Of a stretch of DNA of 64,000 bases, positions 36,904-46,013 are shown piece after piece. Numbering within the stretch: the first letter of the stretch is position 1; each line of letters opens with the position of its first letter. The notes beneath the pieces are model-generated. The model worked only from the letters and a program-made list of their open reading frames with translations. It was not told where the DNA came from and did no database searches. The stretch comes from an uncultured Gemmataceae bacterium. GTDB lineage: Bacteria; Planctomycetota; Planctomycetia; Gemmatales; Gemmataceae. The stretch spans positions 62,001 through 126,000 of the forward strand of contig CALDUY010000033.1 of the NCBI GenBank assembly GCA_937923405.1, read 5' to 3'. Made by a program: the position numbers and the translations under genes.

Positions 36904-37860
36904 ATGGGCACCCGGTTTCACGTCATCGAAGCGCGAGAGGCTGGTCTGACACTCCTGGAATGGTTGCAGAGCCAACTACGACTGCCTCGTCAGCTGGCGA
37001 TGAAGCAGTTAAACCGCCGTTTCGTTCGTGTCAACGGAACCCCTTGCTCGAACCCAGCTTGGCGATTACGAGCGGGCCAACGCATCGAGGTTGGCCCTAC
37101 TTCACCAAACAGAGATATTCCCTCTATTGTTATCCGCTATATTGACGAAGCAGTGGTAATCGTTGAGAAGCCAGCGGGTTTGACCACGATGCGGCACGCC
37201 GAGGAAGCTGCAGAGTTCGGAGCGCGAGCCAAGAAATACTTGCCGCTCACTCTGGCCGAAGTACTTCCGCAGCAACTGGCCGCTCAGAATCGAGGTAAAC
37301 CTGTTCCCGTTCGCGCGGTGCATCGCCTAGATCGCGACACAACTGGGCTGCTCGTTTTCGCACGTAATCCAGAGGCCGAACGCCACTTGGGAAGACAGTT
37401 CCGCGAGCATTCAATTGAACGCAGCTACCTGGCAATTGTGCGCGGACAGGCCCAATCGGCACGCCTCGAATCGTGGTTGGTGCGCGATCGAGGAGACGGT
37501 CGGCGCGGCAGCAGTAAACACCCCGGCGAAGGGCAGCGTGCCGTCACTGAAGTTGAAGTCATCGAACCGCTCGGCAGTTTTACGTTGGTGCGCTGTCGGC
37601 TGCAAACCGGTCGCACTCATCAGGTCCGCATTCATCTGGGCGAAGCCGGAACCCCGTTGTGCGGGGAAAAGGTCTACGATCGTCCCTTGCATGGACGCCC
37701 CCTGCCGGATACTAGCCGTTTCTCTCGCCCCGCACTACATGCCGCTTCGCTGGGGTTTACGCATCCGTTCACAGGGGAATGGCGGCGCTGGACTTCGGAG
37801 TTACCTGCGGACATGGCCAAGTTGCTGGAGACTCTTCGGAAGAATAAGAGATCTATTTAG
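36904..37860 (+). CDS. RluA-family pseudouridine synthase
   Basis: 318 aa from the ATG at 36904 (MGTRFHVIEAREAG); the frame opens further upstream inside the preceding gene. An S4 RNA-binding domain (about 20-75: LRLPRQLAMKQLNRRFVRVNG) precedes the catalytic domain, which has the HRLDRDTTGLLVFA motif with the nucleophilic aspartate and RLQTGRTHQVRIHL. It modifies rRNA or tRNA uridines; the RluA, RluC or RluD site cannot be separated by eye. The stop overlaps by 3 bases the stop of the convergent ferredoxin gene. Confidence 0.9.
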   Translation: MGTRFHVIEAREAGLTLLEWLQSQLRLPRQLAMKQLNRRFVRVNGTPCSNPAWRLRAGQRIEVGPTSPNRDIPSIVIRYIDEAVVIVEKPAGLTTMRHAEEAAEFGARAKKYLPLTLAEVLPQQLAAQNRGKPVPVRAVHRLDRDTTGLLVFARNPEAERHLGRQFREHSIERSYLAIVRGQAQSARLESWLVRDRGDGRRGSSKHPGEGQRAVTEVEVIEPLGSFTLVRCRLQTGRTHQVRIHLGEAGTPLCGEKVYDRPLHGRPLPDTSRFSRPALHAASLGFTHPFTGEWRRWTSELPADMAKLLETLRKNKRSI

Positions 37861-38057
37861 TCCTCAAACAGAGTCAAAGCCTGTTCAGGGCAGATCCAGA
37901 CACACAGCGAGCAGGAAACACAGCGGGCAGGGCGGGGCAACCAGGGTAGCCCCTCGGCCATCTCCAGACAATCGGTCGGACAAATGACCACACACTCCGA
38001 ACAGCCGGTGCAGAGTCGTTCGTCGAGATTAGGTAGCGCGTGCATATCGAGCTTCAC
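37857..38057 (-). CDS. Small 2[4Fe-4S] ferredoxin
   Basis: 66 aa (GTG start at 38057, overlapping the previous stop as GTGA; an ATG at 38045 is the alternative). Two 4Fe-4S motifs: CTGCSECVVICPTDC and CVSCSLCVWICPEQA, each CxxCxxCxxxCP. The short hydrophobic spacing suggests a bacterial dicluster electron carrier. It is the last gene in a minus-strand run after a receiver-like gene and a sigma-54-activator-like gene. It could deliver electrons to an unknown partner or act as a redox sensor for the regulators, which is inference. Its stop overlaps that of the convergent RluA-family gene. Confidence 0.88.
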   Translation of the reverse strand: MKLDMHALPNLDERLCTGCSECVVICPTDCLEMAEGLPWLPRPARCVSCSLCVWICPEQALTLFED

Positions 38058-38416
38058 TGGATCAAGGAAACGACAAGTTCAACAAACCGCTCCCGAGATT
38101 GCCCAAGCGTAATCACCGCCGTAGCTCCCAACGTCCAAGCCAGCAAGCGAAGCTGCGGCACATCCTGATCAAGAACGGTCAAAATAGACACTTGCGGAGC
38201 ATGTTCCCTGGCCTGAGCTACCACCAAAAACTCGCGCTCCAGATCGCTGCCGACGCGAACAATCAACAAATTTGGGCCTCCTCGATCGAGAAAGCGAAGC
38301 ACGGACTCCAACTGTTGAGGCTGGCGAAGCAGCCAGTGCTGCTGCTCCGCGAGCGGAAGCAGTAACTTGGCGAGCCGATTCTCAGTCTCCCAAAGAACGA
38401 TTTGAGGAAACCGCAT
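38054..38416 (-). CDS. Receiver-like protein lacking the acceptor aspartate
   Basis: 120 aa. The alternating alpha/beta pattern (IVLWETENRLAKLLLPLAEQ, NLLIVRVGSDLEREFLVV, VSILTVLDQDVPQLRLLAWTLGATAVITL) and length match a CheY-like receiver. The strand-3 position that should hold the phospho-accepting Asp (LLIVRVG) has none, and the acidic pair at the N terminus is reduced. It is therefore probably a pseudo-receiver that binds a partner without phosphorylation. Its start codon comes one base after the stop of the sigma-54-activator-like gene; its stop overlaps the ferredoxin start. Confidence 0.65.
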   Translation of the reverse strand: MRFPQIVLWETENRLAKLLLPLAEQQHWLLRQPQQLESVLRFLDRGGPNLLIVRVGSDLEREFLVVAQAREHAPQVSILTVLDQDVPQLRLLAWTLGATAVITLGQSRERFVELVVSLIQ

Positions 38417-38417
38417 G

Positions 38418-39743
38418 TTATGCTTCCTCTTCGCTGTGGGTGATGCCCAAAGCTTCTAGACGACGTAACAATCGGGGGCGATGGATGCCGAGTAACTCTG
38501 CCGCACGAGTGCGATTACCTCGGGTACGTTTCAGAGCTAGTCGAATCAGCCGTTCCTCGACGCGATTGAGTAACTGTTCCAGTGAAAGCGACTCGGCCTG
38601 ATACACTGGTTCCAGTTCGAGAAGACGGGCCTCACGAAAGGGCATGGGCAAGTCGGCCAACTCAATCTGCTCCGACGTGGACGCCCCAGCAGCTTCTCGC
38701 AGCACCCGCCAAAGCTCCGTTAAATTGCCCGGCCAAGCGTAGGCGCGAAACGCTTCTAGAGCGGATGCAGTTAATGGTTTGCTCAGCTGAGCGTGTTCCA
38801 ACAAGAGGGGTAAATCCTCTATTCGCTGACGCAGTGGGGGTAAATCGATGGAGATCGTAGCGATGCGCCACTGCAACTCGTCCAGTAAGCGGTCGATCGG
38901 CTCGCTTGTTCCAACGATGAGACGCGGTCCGTTGCCAGTTGCCAACCAGGTACAGAGGTGTTGTTGCAACTCGCGGGGCAGGGCAGCAGGTTCAGCGAGG
39001 TACAACGTCCCGATCGATTGCCAGAATGTACTTCCCCGATCCGTGAGGAAGAACTCCGTGAGGTAGCGAGAAGGAAGTTTACGACAATTAAGACCGACAA
39101 AATACTTTTCTTGCTGACAGCCTTGAGCGTGAATGATTCGGGCTAACGTGTGCTTTCCTGTGCCACGTTCGCCGCGTAGCAACACTGGTTCGACAACCTG
39201 GCTGGCCAGGCGAGCCTGAGCCTGCAGTCGTCGCATCGCCAGCGTATTGCTGCGGAGCCACTCGAACGTATAGCGTTTTTGTTGTCGTATCCGAAGATTT
39301 TCCAGTTTTTCGGGTAAGATCAACTGGCCTGGTGGTAGGTCGATCGGCAAAGGCAGGATGCGTCCCAGAATGAGGTAGCCATCTTGGGGGCCAGACTGAC
39401 GCAGAGGAAAAAACTCGATGTCCCACCACTGTCTTACAGCGGGCGAGGTCCGATGTCGAGATAAGAACAAGCGACGCACCTGGCAGATGCGGCCCTGGTT
39501 GGCCTCCGGCGGCGGGGTTAGCAGATGTGCTAACACCTCTTCCGCACTGTCATCAGGCTTGACCGACTGTGGACGACGACACACCAAGCCACGAACCCGA
39601 TCTGCCGTTAGATCGGCAAGTTGTTCAAACGAACGATTGACAAACAGCAGACGGCGTCGGCGATCGAGAACGAACACCGCTTCCTCAACCCGTTGCAACA
39701 GGCTTTGCCAGCGAACCCCTCGCCCAAAGGAGTTAGCGCCCAT
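38418..39743 (-). CDS. Degenerate sigma-54-activator-like protein (PAS, AAA, Fis HTH)
   Basis: 441 aa. An N-terminal PAS-like domain (EEAVFVLDRRRRLLFVNRSFEQL) is followed by a linker and an AAA domain (about 160-375) built like NtrC but altered: Walker A is GERGTGKH near 188, the GAFTGA sigma-54-contact loop is absent (that segment is shortened), and Walker B reads TLYLAEP near 244 where TLFLDE is expected. PPLRQRIEDLPLLLEH and WPGNLTELWRVL are retained. The C-terminal Fis-type helix-turn-helix (RTRGNRTRAAELLGIHRPRLLRRLEALG) is intact. It probably binds DNA but cannot activate sigma-54 in the usual way. It is cotranscribed with the receiver-like and ferredoxin genes. Confidence 0.8.
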   Translation of the reverse strand: MGANSFGRGVRWQSLLQRVEEAVFVLDRRRRLLFVNRSFEQLADLTADRVRGLVCRRPQSVKPDDSAEEVLAHLLTPPPEANQGRICQVRRLFLSRHRTSPAVRQWWDIEFFPLRQSGPQDGYLILGRILPLPIDLPPGQLILPEKLENLRIRQQKRYTFEWLRSNTLAMRRLQAQARLASQVVEPVLLRGERGTGKHTLARIIHAQGCQQEKYFVGLNCRKLPSRYLTEFFLTDRGSTFWQSIGTLYLAEPAALPRELQQHLCTWLATGNGPRLIVGTSEPIDRLLDELQWRIATISIDLPPLRQRIEDLPLLLEHAQLSKPLTASALEAFRAYAWPGNLTELWRVLREAAGASTSEQIELADLPMPFREARLLELEPVYQAESLSLEQLLNRVEERLIRLALKRTRGNRTRAAELLGIHRPRLLRRLEALGITHSEEEA

Positions 39744-39764: not shown

Positions 39765-39962
39765 TCAATACTGATTGACCAGGAACAACACAACGCCAAT
39801 CCCTACCAGGAAAAGCACTAAGCGAACCCCCCAACGTACTGCTTCCCAGAGGATAGAAGACCACTGCTCGTAACGAGTCGCGCTGTACACCAGACTAATC
39901 AGCAGCACCATGAACGGTAGATCAAAGAAGTAGATCGCCCGCGCCGAACTGGGATCGATCAT
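39765..39962 (-). CDS. Small membrane protein of unknown function
   Basis: 65 aa from the ATG at 39962 (MIDPSSARAIYFFDL). Two hydrophobic segments (FFDLPFMVLLISLVYSA and VRLVLFLVGIGVVLFLV) surround a short RYEQWSSILWEAV loop. I do not recognise a named family. The start is one base from the stop of the upstream membrane protein gene, so the two are coupled and likely interact. It is followed after 21 bases by the sigma-54-activator-like gene. Confidence 0.65.
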   Translation of the reverse strand: MIDPSSARAIYFFDLPFMVLLISLVYSATRYEQWSSILWEAVRWGVRLVLFLVGIGVVLFLVNQY

Positions 39963-39963
39963 G

Positions 39964-40584
39964 TTATCCCTTCCCTTCGCTGTGGAACATCGCGCGACCA
40001 AAAGCAGGCCCAGCGACGGCATCATAGATGACAAGTATGTTGAGAACCCCAGCGATTACGGTGTAGACCCAGGCCAACTCCAGGCGTTTATCTCCTGCGT
40101 TGTGTACGGCATTGACTGCTTCCGCATTCGGTTCCCGCATGAAATTCTTCAGAATTGGATGGCCGGCTTGGAGAGCCTCGCCGAATTCATCCCGTTGAGT
40201 TGTGGTCGATTTGTTCAGATATTGCACGATAGCCGGCCACGCCGCTATGCCGACCCAGAACTGACCAGCAAACTGTGGGCGAATGTAGAGATTCTGTAAC
40301 AACGTCGGCAACTGGCGGTTCTGATCCTGAGGATCGACGGCGTCCGGAAGGTAGACATTACTCGTGACTTCATAGGTCGTTCCGTTGAGCGTCACCGAAC
40401 CCGTTCCGAGATAGACGCCGTAAAAAAACAGCGAATAGATACAGATGAAAAACAGTAGTCCTTTTCCAACTCGTCCCTGAGCGATCTGGCCAAGACCGGG
40501 GACGAGATAACTGAGAATCCCCGCACCAATGGCGAGCGAGGAATGTGGAACAAATGAAGAATCAGGTAGTGAGGCTGTTGCCAT
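39964..40584 (-). CDS. Multi-pass membrane protein, DUF6677/TM2-like
   Basis: 206 aa from the ATG at 40584 (GAGG six bases upstream); two earlier in-frame starts exist. Motif SYLVPGLGQIAQGRVGKGLLFFICIYSLFFYG resembles the TM2-like/DUF6677 segment (PGLGQ..xGxxxKG), and a second hydrophobic region WVYTVIAGVLNILVIYDA is near the C terminus. Between them is a hydrophilic region, probably on one side of the membrane. The family is common in planctomycetes but without a known role. Its stop directly precedes the start of the small membrane protein gene. Confidence 0.65.
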   Translation of the reverse strand: MATASLPDSSFVPHSSLAIGAGILSYLVPGLGQIAQGRVGKGLLFFICIYSLFFYGVYLGTGSVTLNGTTYEVTSNVYLPDAVDPQDQNRQLPTLLQNLYIRPQFAGQFWVGIAAWPAIVQYLNKSTTTQRDEFGEALQAGHPILKNFMREPNAEAVNAVHNAGDKRLELAWVYTVIAGVLNILVIYDAVAGPAFGRAMFHSEGKG

Positions 40585-40655
40585 AAGCATCCTCAGTGCC
40601 AGAAGAATCGGTCCCACGACGACGACGACAATTCCGGCATTCTACCAGAATCGGC

Positions 40656-41693
40656 CTAACGGGTCCAACCGAACCCGTCTACCACTGCCAGCACAGCTGC
40701 CGCAATTAAGGCCAGTATACCCAGATTACCCAGGACGGCTCGCCCGGAAGGCCCACGAAACCACCGACCAATCGGGCCAAGTGGATACAGGCAAAGATCG
40801 AAGGCTTGGTTAAACCAGACCGCTGGTCGAAGGATCCACGGCATATGATTTTGAGAAGAGTCATCAGGCATTGCAGCAGAGGGCGGGGGAATCACCGGCT
40901 GGCCCATCGAGTGCGGTGGGGGCGGAAAATACACTGGCTGAGCAACCGGCGGTCGAGCCAATGGAGGGATCACTGGTTGTGCCATCGGTGGTATTGAGGG
41001 CGGATCAGACGGCGGAACGTAGGCTCGCGGGGGTTCCGGGATCGGCGTCGGTGTGGGCGACGAGGGTGGTGTGTACACTCGTGGAGCGGGAGAGATGACC
41101 GGCTCGGGTTCTGGGTTAGAGATCGCACCGCGCGATTGCTCCCAGGTTTTGGCAAGTGGCTTCCAAGTCTGTGCGGAAGGTTGCCAAGTGGAGCGTAAGG
41201 GAATCCAGTCATCGGTCGCGCGAGCCAGTGTCTCGGGGTCGACCGACTCATACCCCCGAGGAGCCGATGTTCGCACAGCCTCACCAGGAGATTCGCTGGA
41301 ACGCGGGTGCAACTCGGTGGTCTCTGGAGAAGCGTGGGTAGAAGAAAGTTCCTGCAACTCCGGTGGCGTCGAAGTCTCCACAACCATGTACGATGCAGGA
41401 TAGGTTCGGCGTGGGGAGTTCGGGGTTCGAGCCGGCGATTCCGGCCGCCGGGACGGTTCCGCAGGCACGGGATCAGGTCTCGACGAAGGCCCTAATGGCT
41501 CTGTGTAGGCAGTCTCGGGGGGGACCGAGCGCGTAGAAGCTGGGTAATCTGGTTCTTCCTCATGCGATTCCGGCTCAGCCGACGACACGGGAAGATCGAG
41601 CATACGCTGCAAGAGCGCATCGAGTTCATCGAGTTGTTGTCGTGTGGCCTGCGCCGTGCCGCTGGGCCGGTTGGTTCTCGGAACAGCAGACAT
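40656..41693 (-). CDS. Proline-rich protein with C-terminal membrane anchor
   Basis: 345 aa from the ATG at 41693 with AAGGGA upstream; the open frame continues 44 codons further but overlaps the divergent rsmE start. A short N-terminal helix (ATRQQLDELDALLQRMLDL) precedes a long low-complexity region rich in Pro, Ser, Thr and Glu, with repeated PPxxP tracts (PVIPPLARPPVAQPV), and one C-terminal membrane helix (LGILALIAAAVLAVV). It is probably tail-anchored with a large cytoplasmic disordered part. No family is assigned. It is the first gene of the run leading to the pseudo-regulators. Confidence 0.6.
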   Translation of the reverse strand: MSAVPRTNRPSGTAQATRQQLDELDALLQRMLDLPVSSAEPESHEEEPDYPASTRSVPPETAYTEPLGPSSRPDPVPAEPSRRPESPARTPNSPRRTYPASYMVVETSTPPELQELSSTHASPETTELHPRSSESPGEAVRTSAPRGYESVDPETLARATDDWIPLRSTWQPSAQTWKPLAKTWEQSRGAISNPEPEPVISPAPRVYTPPSSPTPTPIPEPPRAYVPPSDPPSIPPMAQPVIPPLARPPVAQPVYFPPPPHSMGQPVIPPPSAAMPDDSSQNHMPWILRPAVWFNQAFDLCLYPLGPIGRWFRGPSGRAVLGNLGILALIAAAVLAVVDGFGWTR

Positions 41694-41750: not shown

Positions 41751-42440
41751 ATGGCCGACCGTTTCCACGTCAACCAACCACTCGAACCAGGTCTCGTGGT
41801 TCTCCAAGGACCGGAGGCACATCATCTCGTCACCGTCTGCCGAATTCGCCCTGGCGATACAGTTTGCCTATTTAATGGAGATGGCTACGAATACGCTAGC
41901 AGAGTGGTTGAAGTTACTCGTCGAGCGGTCACGATCGAGGTGAGATCCTGTGAGTTGCGCGATCGAGAACGACCAGGTAGATTGCACTTAGCTGTAGCTC
42001 TGCCCAAAGGAGATCGCGCCCAAGTGATGGTCGAGAAACTGACCGAACTAGGAGTTCATCAGTTAACTGTAGTAGCGACGGAACGCAGTGTGGTTCATCC
42101 CCGTGAGGCGAAGGTAGAAAAATTACATCGCTATGTGATCGAGGCTAGCAAGCAGTGTGGGCGCAATCGCTTGATGGAAATTGCTGGCCCCATGAAATTG
42201 AGCGAATTCGTGCAACAACAGGGACTGCCAAAACTACGCTTGATTGCCCATCCCAACGGTCCATCCACCTGGCCAGCGAATCTGGAAACCGTTGCGGTAT
42301 TGATCGGCCCAGAAGGAGGTTTTACCGAGAATGAAGTTCGACAGGCCGAGTCGGCAGGCTGGTCGCTACTCGGCTTAGGGCCGAGGATTTTACGCATCGA
42401 GACAGCTGCAATCGCGGTGGCAGCACGAGCTACACTTTAA
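41751..42440 (+). CDS. rsmE: 16S rRNA (uracil1498-N3)-methyltransferase
   Basis: 229 aa. SPOUT-class knotted methyltransferase: N-terminal PUA-like part (GPEAHHLVTVCRIRPGDTVCLFNGDG), ALPKGDRAQVMVEKLTELGV, ATERSVVHP, ASKQCGRNRL, and the AdoMet knot VLIGPEGGFTENEV with LGPRILRIETAAIAV at the end. Methylates N3 of U1498 in 16S rRNA. Length is normal. Divergent from the proline-rich gene, 57 bases between the starts. Confidence 0.94.
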   Translation: MADRFHVNQPLEPGLVVLQGPEAHHLVTVCRIRPGDTVCLFNGDGYEYASRVVEVTRRAVTIEVRSCELRDRERPGRLHLAVALPKGDRAQVMVEKLTELGVHQLTVVATERSVVHPREAKVEKLHRYVIEASKQCGRNRLMEIAGPMKLSEFVQQQGLPKLRLIAHPNGPSTWPANLETVAVLIGPEGGFTENEVRQAESAGWSLLGLGPRILRIETAAIAVAARATL

Positions 42441-42648: not shown

Positions 42649-43701
42649 ATGCCCACCGAACTGCTGGCCGCTGAACTGATCAGCGGCCGAGAAGCGCTTT
42701 CCGTGGATCGTTGCCTGGAATTGCTCCGTATCATGATCCGCGCTCGGGTCATGGAAGAGCGGCTCATCAAGATGTCCAAATCCGGTCAGGGACATTTCTG
42801 GATCGGCGGCCCCGGCGAGGAGGCGTTCAATGCCGCACTCGGTTTGCAGGTTCGTAAAGGTCAGGGGCCTCTTTACGACTATCTTCATCTGCATTATCGC
42901 AATAGTGCTACGCTGATCGCCATGGGAATGCCTCTCATTGAGGGAGTCCGACAAATGGCGATGACCGCGACGGACACGCACTCGTTGGGACGAAACTTCA
43001 TCAGTCATTGGGCCAAGGCGGAATGGAACGTCATTCCCGTGACCTCGGTCATTGAAGTGCAGTATGTGATGGCTCCCGGCACCGCCTTGGTTCAGAAACG
43101 AGCAGGAGGTGAAGGAGTCTCGATCGTGGTAGGCGGCGATGCCGGCACCGCAGAAGGCGACTTCGCCTCCTGCATGATCTGGAGTACGCGGCCCGGCAAC
43201 GAACTGCCCGTCTTGATGGTCGTGACCAACAATAGCTACGGCATCTCTACGCCAGCCTGTAGTCAGCATGCCGAGAAGCACATCATCGACCGAGGCAAGG
43301 CGTTTGGGATTCGCGGCGAAGTGGTCGACGGCAATGATCCGATAGCCAGCTGGCACGCCATCTCCCGCGCGCTACAGTATTGTCGGAACACCCGGCGTCC
43401 GTTCATGCTCGAAGCTCATGTGTCTCGACTCTACGGCCATTCGTCTTCCTCTGGCGCGTTACGAGTTAAAAATGAAGTCTGTTGCATCGAGCAGTTTGAG
43501 AAAAAACTGCTTGATTCTGGCTTAGTCGAGACAGCCGTGATCGAACAACTGCACGACGACGCCCTCGCGGAAATCGAGCAAGCGGTCGAGCAAGTGATGA
43601 AAGAACCGATGCCGCGACCCGAAGACGTTGAGAAGTACACCTATGCGCCGAGTGAAGTCGATGCGGTTTATCCGCACGACTACACAGGCTTGCCCCGTTG
43701 A
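42649..43701 (+). CDS. 2-oxoacid dehydrogenase E1 component, alpha subunit
   Basis: 350 aa. Thiamine-diphosphate-dependent decarboxylating subunit. RARVMEERLIKMSKSGQGHFWIGGPGEEA at the N terminus, YRNSATLIAMGMPL and SLGRNFISHWAKAEWN, and the TPP motif GGDAGTAEGDF...NNSYGIST (GDA in place of GDG). The pattern is closer to the branched-chain 2-oxoisovalerate type than to pyruvate dehydrogenase. GGAGGAG precedes the ATG. It is the first gene of an E1alpha-E1beta-E2 operon; no E3 (dihydrolipoyl dehydrogenase) gene is nearby, so E3 must be supplied from elsewhere. Confidence 0.88.
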   Translation: MPTELLAAELISGREALSVDRCLELLRIMIRARVMEERLIKMSKSGQGHFWIGGPGEEAFNAALGLQVRKGQGPLYDYLHLHYRNSATLIAMGMPLIEGVRQMAMTATDTHSLGRNFISHWAKAEWNVIPVTSVIEVQYVMAPGTALVQKRAGGEGVSIVVGGDAGTAEGDFASCMIWSTRPGNELPVLMVVTNNSYGISTPACSQHAEKHIIDRGKAFGIRGEVVDGNDPIASWHAISRALQYCRNTRRPFMLEAHVSRLYGHSSSSGALRVKNEVCCIEQFEKKLLDSGLVETAVIEQLHDDALAEIEQAVEQVMKEPMPRPEDVEKYTYAPSEVDAVYPHDYTGLPR

Positions 43702-43713
43702 GCGAGTCGCACC

Positions 43714-44772
43714 ATGGCCACACTGGTACAAGCAGTTCGTCTGGCCCTGCACTATGGGGAAGAACATCTCGGAGTGACCGATATCTTCGGCGAGGATGTC
43801 GGCCCACCTCTAGGCGGCGTCTTTACCGCAACTCAGGGATTACGCACCGCCTGGAATAGTCCCCTCGATGAGCGCGGCATTATCGGCATGGCAATGGGAA
43901 TCGCCTACGCTGGTGGTCGGCCCGTGGCGGAGATTCAGTTTTGTGATTATGGATTTAACACAATCGATCTCCTTAAAGTCGCTGGAAACCAGCGCTGGGC
44001 CGGTGCTGGCAACTACTCGTTACCGATGGTGGTCATGACTCCGTCTGGATCGGGGATTCGCGGCAGCCTGTACCACTCACACAGTTTCGAGAGTTGGGCC
44101 AGTCGGCTGGCGGGTTGGAAAATCGTGATGCCGTCCAACGCTCTGGATGCTTACGGACTAATGCTCTCGGCCATCAAGGATCCCAATCCAGTGATGGTGC
44201 TGCTTCCTAAGGCGCTGCTGCGAGTTCGTGGCGAACAGCGAATTCCTGGCGAGCCGGAGGATGACGCAGAGCTGAAAGACCGTATCGATGCTCCCGTAGG
44301 CGATCGGTCTCAGTGGAAGCCGCGCTGGCCCGACGTGCAACCCTATTTTGTCCCGCTGGGCGTTGGTAGTTTGGTCCGTGAAGGCGACGACGTTACCGTG
44401 ATCAGTTATGGTCGAACACTACCACTCTGCGTGCAAGCCGCTGACGAAGTGCAACGCGAGACGGGCAAATCTATCGACGTAATCGATCTCCGAAGTATCT
44501 TTCCCTATGACTGGAAGATGATCTCGCAAAGCGTCGAGAAGACTGGCCGCGTGTTGCTCGTCAACGAGGACACCGAAGTCACGAATTTTGGGGAGCATCT
44601 ACTGCGACGGATCATCGACGAGCAGTTTTACGATCTCCTTGTTCGTCCACGACTGCTAGCGGGTAAACACGTTCCGGGAATCGGACTGAATCAAATTTAC
44701 GAGCAGAACACGGTGCCGCAACTGCGCGAGATCAAGCGCGAACTGCTGGCCGTGGCCACCGAGGCCGCTTAG
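43714..44772 (+). CDS. 2-oxoacid dehydrogenase E1 component, beta subunit
   Basis: 352 aa. Transketolase-like beta chain: FGEDVGPPLGGVFTATQGL, DERGIIGMAMGIAYAGGRPVAEIQFCDYGF, MTPSGSGIRGSLYHSHSFESW, VLLPKALLR, and the C-terminal DVIDLRSIFPYDWKMI with VLLVNEDTEVTNFGEHL. Completes the TPP site with the alpha subunit, 12 bases upstream. The longer insert near residues 165-195 is seen in several E1-beta proteins of this group. Substrate: probably branched-chain 2-oxoacids or pyruvate. Confidence 0.9.
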   Translation: MATLVQAVRLALHYGEEHLGVTDIFGEDVGPPLGGVFTATQGLRTAWNSPLDERGIIGMAMGIAYAGGRPVAEIQFCDYGFNTIDLLKVAGNQRWAGAGNYSLPMVVMTPSGSGIRGSLYHSHSFESWASRLAGWKIVMPSNALDAYGLMLSAIKDPNPVMVLLPKALLRVRGEQRIPGEPEDDAELKDRIDAPVGDRSQWKPRWPDVQPYFVPLGVGSLVREGDDVTVISYGRTLPLCVQAADEVQRETGKSIDVIDLRSIFPYDWKMISQSVEKTGRVLLVNEDTEVTNFGEHLLRRIIDEQFYDLLVRPRLLAGKHVPGIGLNQIYEQNTVPQLREIKRELLAVATEAA

Positions 44773-44789
44773 GTCAAGGAGCCTCTCCG

Positions 44790-46013
44790 ATGGATTTCCA
44801 GCTCCCCGCGATCGGTGAAGGAGTGTACGAAGCTGAGTTGGTTCGCTGGCTAATCCAGCCTGGCGACACGGTCAAGCCTGGACAGACTCTCGCCGAAGTG
44901 CTTACCGACAAAGCAACGATGGAGCTACCTTCCCCTTTTTCGGGCAAGATTGTTGCTCTGAAAGTCGAGCCTGGTGAGATCATCAAGCTCGGACAGTCGC
45001 TTCTGGAATACAGCGGCAATGGCGCGGTTGAGGCCACTGCCACAGCCACGGTCACGGAGAAACCCACCATCGCGGCTGGCACTCCCAGTCGTGCCAATGG
45101 CTCAGGAGTGAGCACCACCCCGCTCTCGGTCAAAGCTTCCCCTTCCGTTCGACAGTTGGCGCGAAAGCTCGGGGTTGATCTGTCTGTAATCCCCGGCAGT
45201 GGACCGGATGGCCGTATTCTGGTGGAGGATCTCTCGCGACGCATTGCTATGCCGGGCCGCCAAGCCCCGTTGCAAAAAGCCGAGCTGCGACAGGATTTTG
45301 GCCGACCTGGAACTCGCGTGAAGCTGGCAGGCCTACGCCGCCGCATCGCCGATCATATGGTGCATGCCAAGCGAACGATCCCGCATTACAGCTACGTCGA
45401 TGAAGCCGATGTGACCGAGTTAGTGAAACTTCGCTTGTCGTTGAAAGATGTCTATGCACGCGCCGGGATCAAGTTAACTTACCTAGCTTTCTTCGTTAAG
45501 GCAATCGTGACCGCGTTGAAAGAGGTGCCCATCGTCAACGCGAGTTTGGACGAAGAGAAAGGCGAAATCGTTCTCCACGACCATTACCACATCGGCATCG
45601 CCGCAGCCACTCCCGCGGGACTGGTCGTGCCGGTCATCAAAGACGCGGACAAAAAGGATCTAGGAACAATCGCTCGCGAGATCGACCGCCTGTCTACCGA
45701 TGCGCGAGCCGGCAAGTCACTCTTGGAAGATCTACGCGGCGGGACGTTTACCTTAACCTCTGTAGGAAACATTGGCGGATTGATCTCCACTCCCGTCATC
45801 AACCATCCTGAGGTGGGCATTCTCGGCATCGGACGTGTAGTGCGCCGCCCTGTCTACGATGATGCTGGACAAATCCGACCCGCTGAGTTGATCTATTTGT
45901 CGTTCTCGTTCGATCATCGCGTGGTCGATGGAGCCGTGGGCGCGGCCTTTGGCAACATCGTGCTGCGCGAATTACAGCACCCCGCGCGATTACTGCTTCC
46001 CGCCAATCTTTAG
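44790..46013 (+). CDS. 2-oxoacid dehydrogenase E2 acyltransferase
   Basis: 407 aa. One lipoyl domain with lipoyl Lys41 in VLTDKATMELP, a Ala/Thr-rich linker, a peripheral-subunit-binding domain (PSVRQLARKLGVDLSVIPGSGPDGRI, about 118-150), and the CoA-dependent acyltransferase domain ending in SFSFDHRVVDG with catalytic His376 and Asp380. A typical E2 core of the 2-oxoacid dehydrogenase complex, transferring the acyl group to CoA. AGGAG precedes the ATG. It is the last gene of the operon; an inverted repeat at 46023-46065 follows. Confidence 0.92.
   Translation: MDFQLPAIGEGVYEAELVRWLIQPGDTVKPGQTLAEVLTDKATMELPSPFSGKIVALKVEPGEIIKLGQSLLEYSGNGAVEATATATVTEKPTIAAGTPSRANGSGVSTTPLSVKASPSVRQLARKLGVDLSVIPGSGPDGRILVEDLSRRIAMPGRQAPLQKAELRQDFGRPGTRVKLAGLRRRIADHMVHAKRTIPHYSYVDEADVTELVKLRLSLKDVYARAGIKLTYLAFFVKAIVTALKEVPIVNASLDEEKGEIVLHDHYHIGIAAATPAGLVVPVIKDADKKDLGTIAREIDRLSTDARAGKSLLEDLRGGTFTLTSVGNIGGLISTPVINHPEVGILGIGRVVRRPVYDDAGQIRPAELIYLSFSFDHRVVDGAVGAAFGNIVLRELQHPARLLLPANL

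Follow-up and report, generated by a model that had tools for sequence, protein, structure and literature searches.

The window analyzed here, a 64,000-nucleotide stretch of contig CALDUY010000033.1 from an uncultured Gemmataceae bacterium, carries on its minus strand three contiguous tandem genes whose products form a well-supported pseudoenzyme module: reg, encoding a protein with a PAS domain, a pseudo-AAA+ domain, and a Fis-type helix-turn-helix (HTH); rec, encoding a stand-alone pseudo-receiver; and fdx, encoding a 2[4Fe-4S] ferredoxin. The same gene order recurs in orthologues from many genera, which makes the observation more than chance. We lean towards reading the locus as an ancient planctomycete module of pseudo-enzymes tied to iron-sulfur (Fe-S) supply or to a linked redox function. 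Families compared below carry anonymous codes (f1, f2, and so on), f1 being the family of the window.

Catalytic losses in the regulator and the receiver

Reg matched the Pfam models PAS_8 (23.6 bits, cut-off 21.8), Sigma54_activ_2 (E 5e-13), AAA_lid_14, and HTH_8/Fis (E 1e-9), and its AlphaFold2 model (predicted local distance difference test, pLDDT, 89.1) matched the folds of NtrX, ZraR, FleQ, and VpsR in the PDB. An earlier note on this DNA, made from its letters and open reading frames, had described an NtrC-like protein with intact PAS-like and Fis HTH regions, without GAFTGA, and with the Walker B Asp changed to Ala (TLYLAE); the Pfam matches bear out the two intact regions, and both losses hold in the sequence. 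Over the same alignment columns, the segment before Walker B spans 33 residues in reg vs. 45 in canonical enhancer-binding proteins (EBPs), with GAFTGA falling in the missing part, and of the two intersubunit arginine positions the first is not Arg in the window protein while the second is. Judged by its residues, reg is not a sigma-54 activator: GAFTGA, the Walker B Asp-Glu pair, and the full set of intersubunit arginines are missing, and of the defining features Walker A and the Fis-type HTH are present. Its anatomy, an AAA+/Fis protein with a deletion of loop L1, is that of GAFTGA-less bacterial EBPs (bEBPs) of the sigma-70 type.

Rec had no Pfam match above cut-off. Its AlphaFold2 model, built with 17 orthologues, nonetheless reached a pLDDT of 94.7 with a (beta/alpha)5 receiver fold, and its best PDB matches by Foldseek were solved receivers. 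The receiver-like protein without acceptor Asp of the earlier note is thus recovered, with Arg54 at the acceptor site; aligned orthologues carry Arg, Lys, Gln, Val, or Ala there, and Asp in 0/39. The conserved Lys after beta-5 is also absent, most of the f1 alignment having Leu or Pro-Pro at that place. Rec is therefore a receiver by fold and a pseudo-receiver by residues, without the equipment of a working receiver.

The third gene product, also identified in the earlier note, is confirmed as a 2[4Fe-4S] ferredoxin by its Pfam Fer4 match and eight cysteines, all of which are in place in two CxxCxxCxxxCP motifs and predict cluster binding. The second Cys of the first motif is kept in 38/41 orthologues. 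At three loci (L002:921-1112, L008:3288-3476, and L020:826-1020) it is replaced by His, Val, or Asn, and cluster I of these ferredoxins may be a [3Fe-4S] cluster or absent.

Ancestry and distribution of the losses

A search of 59 related genomes recovered full-length reg orthologues at 33-49% identity. GAFTGA was absent in all of the ~98 reg orthologues examined (f1-f6, f8, f98, f102, f103, f106, f107, and f109) and present in outgroup EBPs from other classes of the phylum (L226-L228). The Walker B Asp survives in 2/39 f1 and 3/23 f3 loci, plus one LDE case in f4 (L213), and the second intersubunit Arg in 10/39 f1 and 2/23 f3 loci. The Walker A Lys is found in 37/39 f1, 19/23 f3, and 15/24 f4 loci. 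In a 12-locus group around f6 (L068, L278-L288), which comprises f6, f98, f103, f106, and f107 and also takes in f8, f102, and f109, it is changed to Arg in 9/12, so that ATP binding may be lost there as well.

In a tree computed without the L1 columns, all members fell on one side of a single branch vs. 18 other EBPs (SH-like approximate likelihood ratio test, SH-aLRT, 100), a result from a small outgroup sample and a quick type of tree. On this tree, GAFTGA loss requires one change, and f1, f2, and f3 are well-supported clades, a topology consistent with a single ancestral loss followed by vertical inheritance. At a strict profile threshold, reg was found as a single copy in 165 of the 249 genomes sampled from the class, and in 69 of the 95 from f1. 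Other classes yielded only weaker-scoring ordinary EBPs, of which the nearest (in G219) has GAFTDA, and a scan of named relatives, in which a generic YxWPGN pattern brought up mostly ordinary EBPs, led to a single recognized true member of the reg family, in a Planctomycetaceae metagenome-assembled genome (L071). On this comparative evidence, the catalytic losses are ancestral and common to the family across the class. Because the HTH and Walker A are conserved and the single copy is widespread, reg appears selected rather than decaying. Calling these regulators "disabled", as the earlier note did, is accordingly right about the missing catalytic residues and misleading in that the losses are common to the whole family across the class; orthologues with GAFTGA or the receiver Asp, which would have pointed to decay at this locus only, were not seen among those examined.

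Association of the three genes

Of 40 f1 genomes, 28 have rec directly behind reg, and 23 have fdx following on that strand no more than 1 kb away. Across 95 f1 genomes, 68 have both reg and rec, 25 have neither, and the two exceptions, one with reg only and one with rec only, are each an incomplete genome (G002, G259); eight genera have neither gene. For reg and fdx the corresponding numbers are 60 with both, 9 with reg only, 3 with fdx only, and 23 with neither, and the presence of fdx in 60/69 reg genomes is a lower bound, since G030 also has fdx beside rec. Rec and reg are far apart in 13 genomes, most of which have fdx adjoining rec; these unlinked rec-fdx loci showed no recurrent Fe-S neighbor. 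The reg of f2, which has no PAS domain, overlaps the gene of a pseudo-receiver, and fdx comes next. Searched against the wider phylum, the rec profile matched mainly ordinary receivers. The triad that the earlier note proposed to look for in other planctomycetes is therefore conserved both in adjacency and in co-occurrence.

Iron-sulfur neighbors in related families

In f3, reg adjoins a SUF operon in 19 of the 22 loci with enough flank, usually in the order sufC-sufB-sufD-rhodanese-sufE-Rieske-FeS_assembly_P-XRE/S24 and then reg on the same strand, as checked with Pfam; the XRE gene and reg almost touch in some loci and lie about 1 kb or further apart in others. Before reg, this operon (L251:1-9728; also L062, L064, L066, and L239-L255) encodes a soluble Rieske ferredoxin and an XRE-HTH/S24 peptidase-like protein, the latter of which may itself regulate SUF. 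Downstream of reg there is often a gene for LpxB (lipid-A-disaccharide synthase; L064, L066, L240, L251, and other f3 loci). In f6, f98, f103, f106, and f107, reg is followed by a gene for Mrp/ApbC, recognized by a NUBPL P-loop and FeS_assembly_P (9/12 loci of the f6 group), usually with a divergent pseudo-receiver between the two. As a control, 79 unrelated EBP loci of other genomes, with flanks of up to 6 kb, included one Mrp, no Suf, and no similar ferredoxin. An Fe-S link is proposed because SUF, Mrp, and ferredoxin neighbors occur in three lineages vs. 1/79 controls; it is a contextual suggestion, with good support of that kind.

A role of reg as a dedicated SUF regulator is weakened by the presence of SUF in only 22/95 f1 genomes. 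With SufB this patchy in f1, most members of that family must use another Fe-S assembly system.

Proposed mechanism and alternative explanations

Under the module reading, reg would be a dimeric or oligomeric protein derived from NtrC-type activators and probably DNA-binding. It is predicted to have lost both sigma-54 contact and ATP hydrolysis, and for this reason most likely represses or activates transcription in the ordinary way, at promoters presumably of the sigma-70 type, with ATP binding serving at most as a structural or status signal. Rec, which should not be phosphorylatable, would be a protein-protein adaptor made together with the ferredoxin, docking on reg as though it were the detached receiver of an NtrC, and relaying the state of the ferredoxin, that is, the presence or the reduction of its clusters. 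The genes under control would most likely serve Fe-S cluster supply or some redox function closely tied to it. The earlier note had proposed a redox-responsive DNA-binding switch independent of both ATP and phosphate, with the ferredoxin as its electron source or sensor. The predicted loss of sigma-54 contact and of phosphotransfer, from the missing GAFTGA and receiver Asp, agrees with it. Its independence of ATP stands only for hydrolysis: the Walker A Lys is kept in nearly all f1 loci, so that reg is better called "hydrolysis-independent" than "ATP-independent", and nucleotide binding may matter. As to the signal, the SUF/Mrp context suggests that a role in Fe-S status is no worse a fit than a redox switch. 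In its fullest and more tentative form, this reading makes the module a class-wide Fe-S-status regulator built wholly of pseudo-enzymes, in which a non-hydrolyzing, sigma-54-independent bEBP takes its input from a pseudo-receiver reading the cluster state of the co-produced ferredoxin (elsewhere tied to SUF or Mrp), that is, a two-component-like pathway without phosphate.

Several observations count against this reading. In f4, reg has an Fe-S neighbor in 0/24 loci and no widely conserved neighbor at all, and the search of f4 genomes turned up no rec. SufB does not track reg among f1 genomes. Conservation of the f3 neighborhood may in part be general synteny, LpxB being often adjacent as well. 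The category of Fe-S neighbors was chosen after seeing the data, and the Fisher values for co-occurrence ignore phylogeny. Within the f1 PAS domain, only Cys55 is widely conserved. Finally, no shared operator emerged from a dyad search, which covered the sequences preceding reg, DUF6677, and rec in f1 as well as those preceding reg in f3 and f4: nothing stood out convincingly from shuffled sequences, and the rec set overlaps conserved coding sequence.

A redox switch, in which the ferredoxin passes electrons via rec to a PAS cysteine or PAS-bound cofactor of reg and so changes DNA binding, is possible but doubtful. It would account for the clustering of fdx with rec, its co-occurrence with reg, and the presence of Cys55 in 85/98 members, at the column where LOV-type PAS domains carry their reactive Cys. 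Nevertheless, f3, f4, and the f6 group keep reg without such a ferredoxin beside it, the cluster-I Cys is lost in 3/41 ferredoxins, a single Cys cannot ligate a cluster, and nothing in the data points to a cofactor. Reg of f1 likewise falls short of the three or four Cys ligands of Fe-S sensors of the IscR/SufR/OrpR type. At two further PAS columns (window residues 39 and 76), Cys occurs in 20/24 and 12/24 f4 proteins; the f6 group has it in 10/12 and 7/12, and in f1 and f3 it is rare there. These extra columns accompany Cys55 in reg of f4 and the f6 group (L058, L258-L288), where they could possibly form a metal or Fe-S site; it is also possible that f1 and f2 rely on the ferredoxin where the PAS domain of some other families would hold such a site.

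Unlikely, in our view, is a general sigma-70 regulator pair with no specificity for Fe-S, whose Fe-S neighbors would reflect synteny or constitutive high expression. The empty f4 neighborhoods would fit it, as would the conservation of other neighbors, DUF6677 and RsmE in f1 and LpxB in f3. It does not readily explain why three different Fe-S partners occur in three separate lineages, why such neighbors are found at a single control locus, or why, in most of the genomes that have rec and reg apart, fdx has gone along with rec to the new locus.

An anti-activator that joins canonical EBP hexamers or occupies their enhancers, blocking sigma-54 transcription, is very improbable. Reg does retain the AAA+ fold, Walker A, and the Fis HTH, and the same genomes encode several other EBPs, but the intersubunit arginine positions are not conserved, and rec and fdx are left unexplained. 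Sigma-54 -24/-12 sites, which the earlier note had suggested checking near the locus, were likewise not found beyond chance in the window (23 matches with <=2 mismatches vs. 17 +/- 4 expected). If an ordinary NtrC two-component operon had recently decayed at this locus alone, this would account for the catalytic residues missing in the window; that reading is rejected, as orthologues across the class carry the same losses in intact frames with a conserved HTH and Walker A.

Gene coordinates and flanking genes

Reg and rec are separated by one base, and the rec stop overlaps the GTG start of fdx (GTGA), as the earlier note's description of genes one base apart or overlapping had it (Table 1). 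In the orthologue alignment, fdx starts at an ATG four codons downstream (ATG at 38045), and with this start the rec-fdx gap is about nine bases.

Table 1 Features of the locus in window coordinates
Feature	Position	Strand	Basis
reg, PAS - pseudo-AAA+ - Fis HTH protein, 441 aa	38418..39743	(-)	Pfam/NCBIfam, AlphaFold2, PDB folds
PAS domain of reg, residues 11-130	39354..39713	(-)	Pfam PAS_8/PAS_4; AlphaFold2 mixed alpha/beta segment
reg Cys55 codon, PAS cysteine	39579..39581	(-)	Cys in 85/98 orthologues
reg Walker A GERGTGKH, intact, Lys197	39150..39173	(-)	Lys in 37/39 f1 loci
reg segment with GAFTGA loop L1 deleted	39012..39080	(-)	Some 12 residues fewer than in canonical EBPs
reg degenerate Walker B TLYLAE, Asp250 to Ala	38991..39008	(-)	Orthologue alignment
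reg Fis-type HTH, residues 394-434	38442..38564	(-)	Pfam HTH_8 E 1e-9; near-invariant in family
rec, stand-alone pseudo-receiver without acceptor Asp, 120 aa	38054..38416	(-)	AlphaFold2, Foldseek, 39-orthologue alignment
rec Arg54 codon, place of phospho-acceptor Asp	38255..38257	(-)	End of strand beta-3, AlphaFold2 model
fdx, 2[4Fe-4S] ferredoxin, 66 aa	37857..38057	(-)	Pfam Fer4; 8 Cys; orthologue alignment
sm, small membrane protein, 72 aa	39765..39983	(-)	Upstream cassette member, 19/39 f1 loci
DUF6677 membrane protein	39964..40617	(-)	Pfam PF20382 E 1.6e-22; 20/39 f1 loci
Pro-rich protein, C-terminal membrane segment	40656..41693	(-)	Upstream in many orthologous cassettes; cluster c338, 11 genomes

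The sm and DUF6677 genes lie directly upstream of reg on the same strand, in a cassette kept in about half of f1. Together with the Pro-rich membrane protein, which cluster c338 matches weakly, they form a unit (39765-41693) divergent from RsmE (41751-42440). Further along, at 42649-46013, the list of open reading frames includes genes resembling E1-alpha, E1-beta, and E2 of a 2-oxoacid dehydrogenase complex.

Relation to known systems and significance

Each part of the module is of a known kind. Fdx has the motif arrangement (CxxCxxCxxxCP ... CxxCxxCxxxCP) and size of ordinary 2[4Fe-4S] ferredoxins, and differs from them in a family-specific sequence, LPWLPRPxxCVSC, and in being mostly encoded beside rec. 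Coupling of Fe-S status to transcription is familiar from OrpR of Desulfovibrio, itself a PAS-bEBP, and from NreB, IscR, and SufR, all of which ligate the cluster in the regulator itself; reg of f1, in contrast, has one conserved PAS Cys, and the clusters would reside in a separate ferredoxin.

GAFTGA-less bEBPs such as NtrC of Caulobacter and Rhodobacter capsulatus, VpsR, TyrR, DhaR, and HupR act at sigma-70 promoters, and Caulobacter NtrC was reported to require both binding and hydrolysis of ATP (PMC10274813, PMC3162934). Reg resembles them as an NtrC-like AAA+ protein with a Fis HTH, in which L1/GAFTGA is deleted or defective and dependence on sigma-54 is not expected. Unlike them, the reg family also loses Walker B class-wide, has a PAS domain rather than a receiver, and occurs with a pseudo-receiver and a ferredoxin encoded by genes of their own. 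Rec, for its part, shares with aspartate-less receivers (PMC12632262, PMC4395418) the receiver fold without acceptor Asp, and differs from known pseudo-receivers in consisting of one domain and in having a ferredoxin encoded alongside. The review text on pseudo-receivers mentions neither ferredoxin nor planctomycetes. In the open-access literature searched, we found neither the class-wide combination of reg, rec, and fdx nor a dedicated study of Fe-S regulators in this planctomycete class.

How bacterial pseudo-receivers are activated has been called a mystery (PMC12632262). The module offers a small natural set whose parts can be separated genetically: its pseudo-receiver co-occurs with a single regulator and mostly has a ferredoxin gene for a neighbor, so that phosphate-free switching of pseudo-receivers becomes directly testable. 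For the planctomycete class itself, reg, rec, and fdx represent a candidate for Fe-S or redox control.

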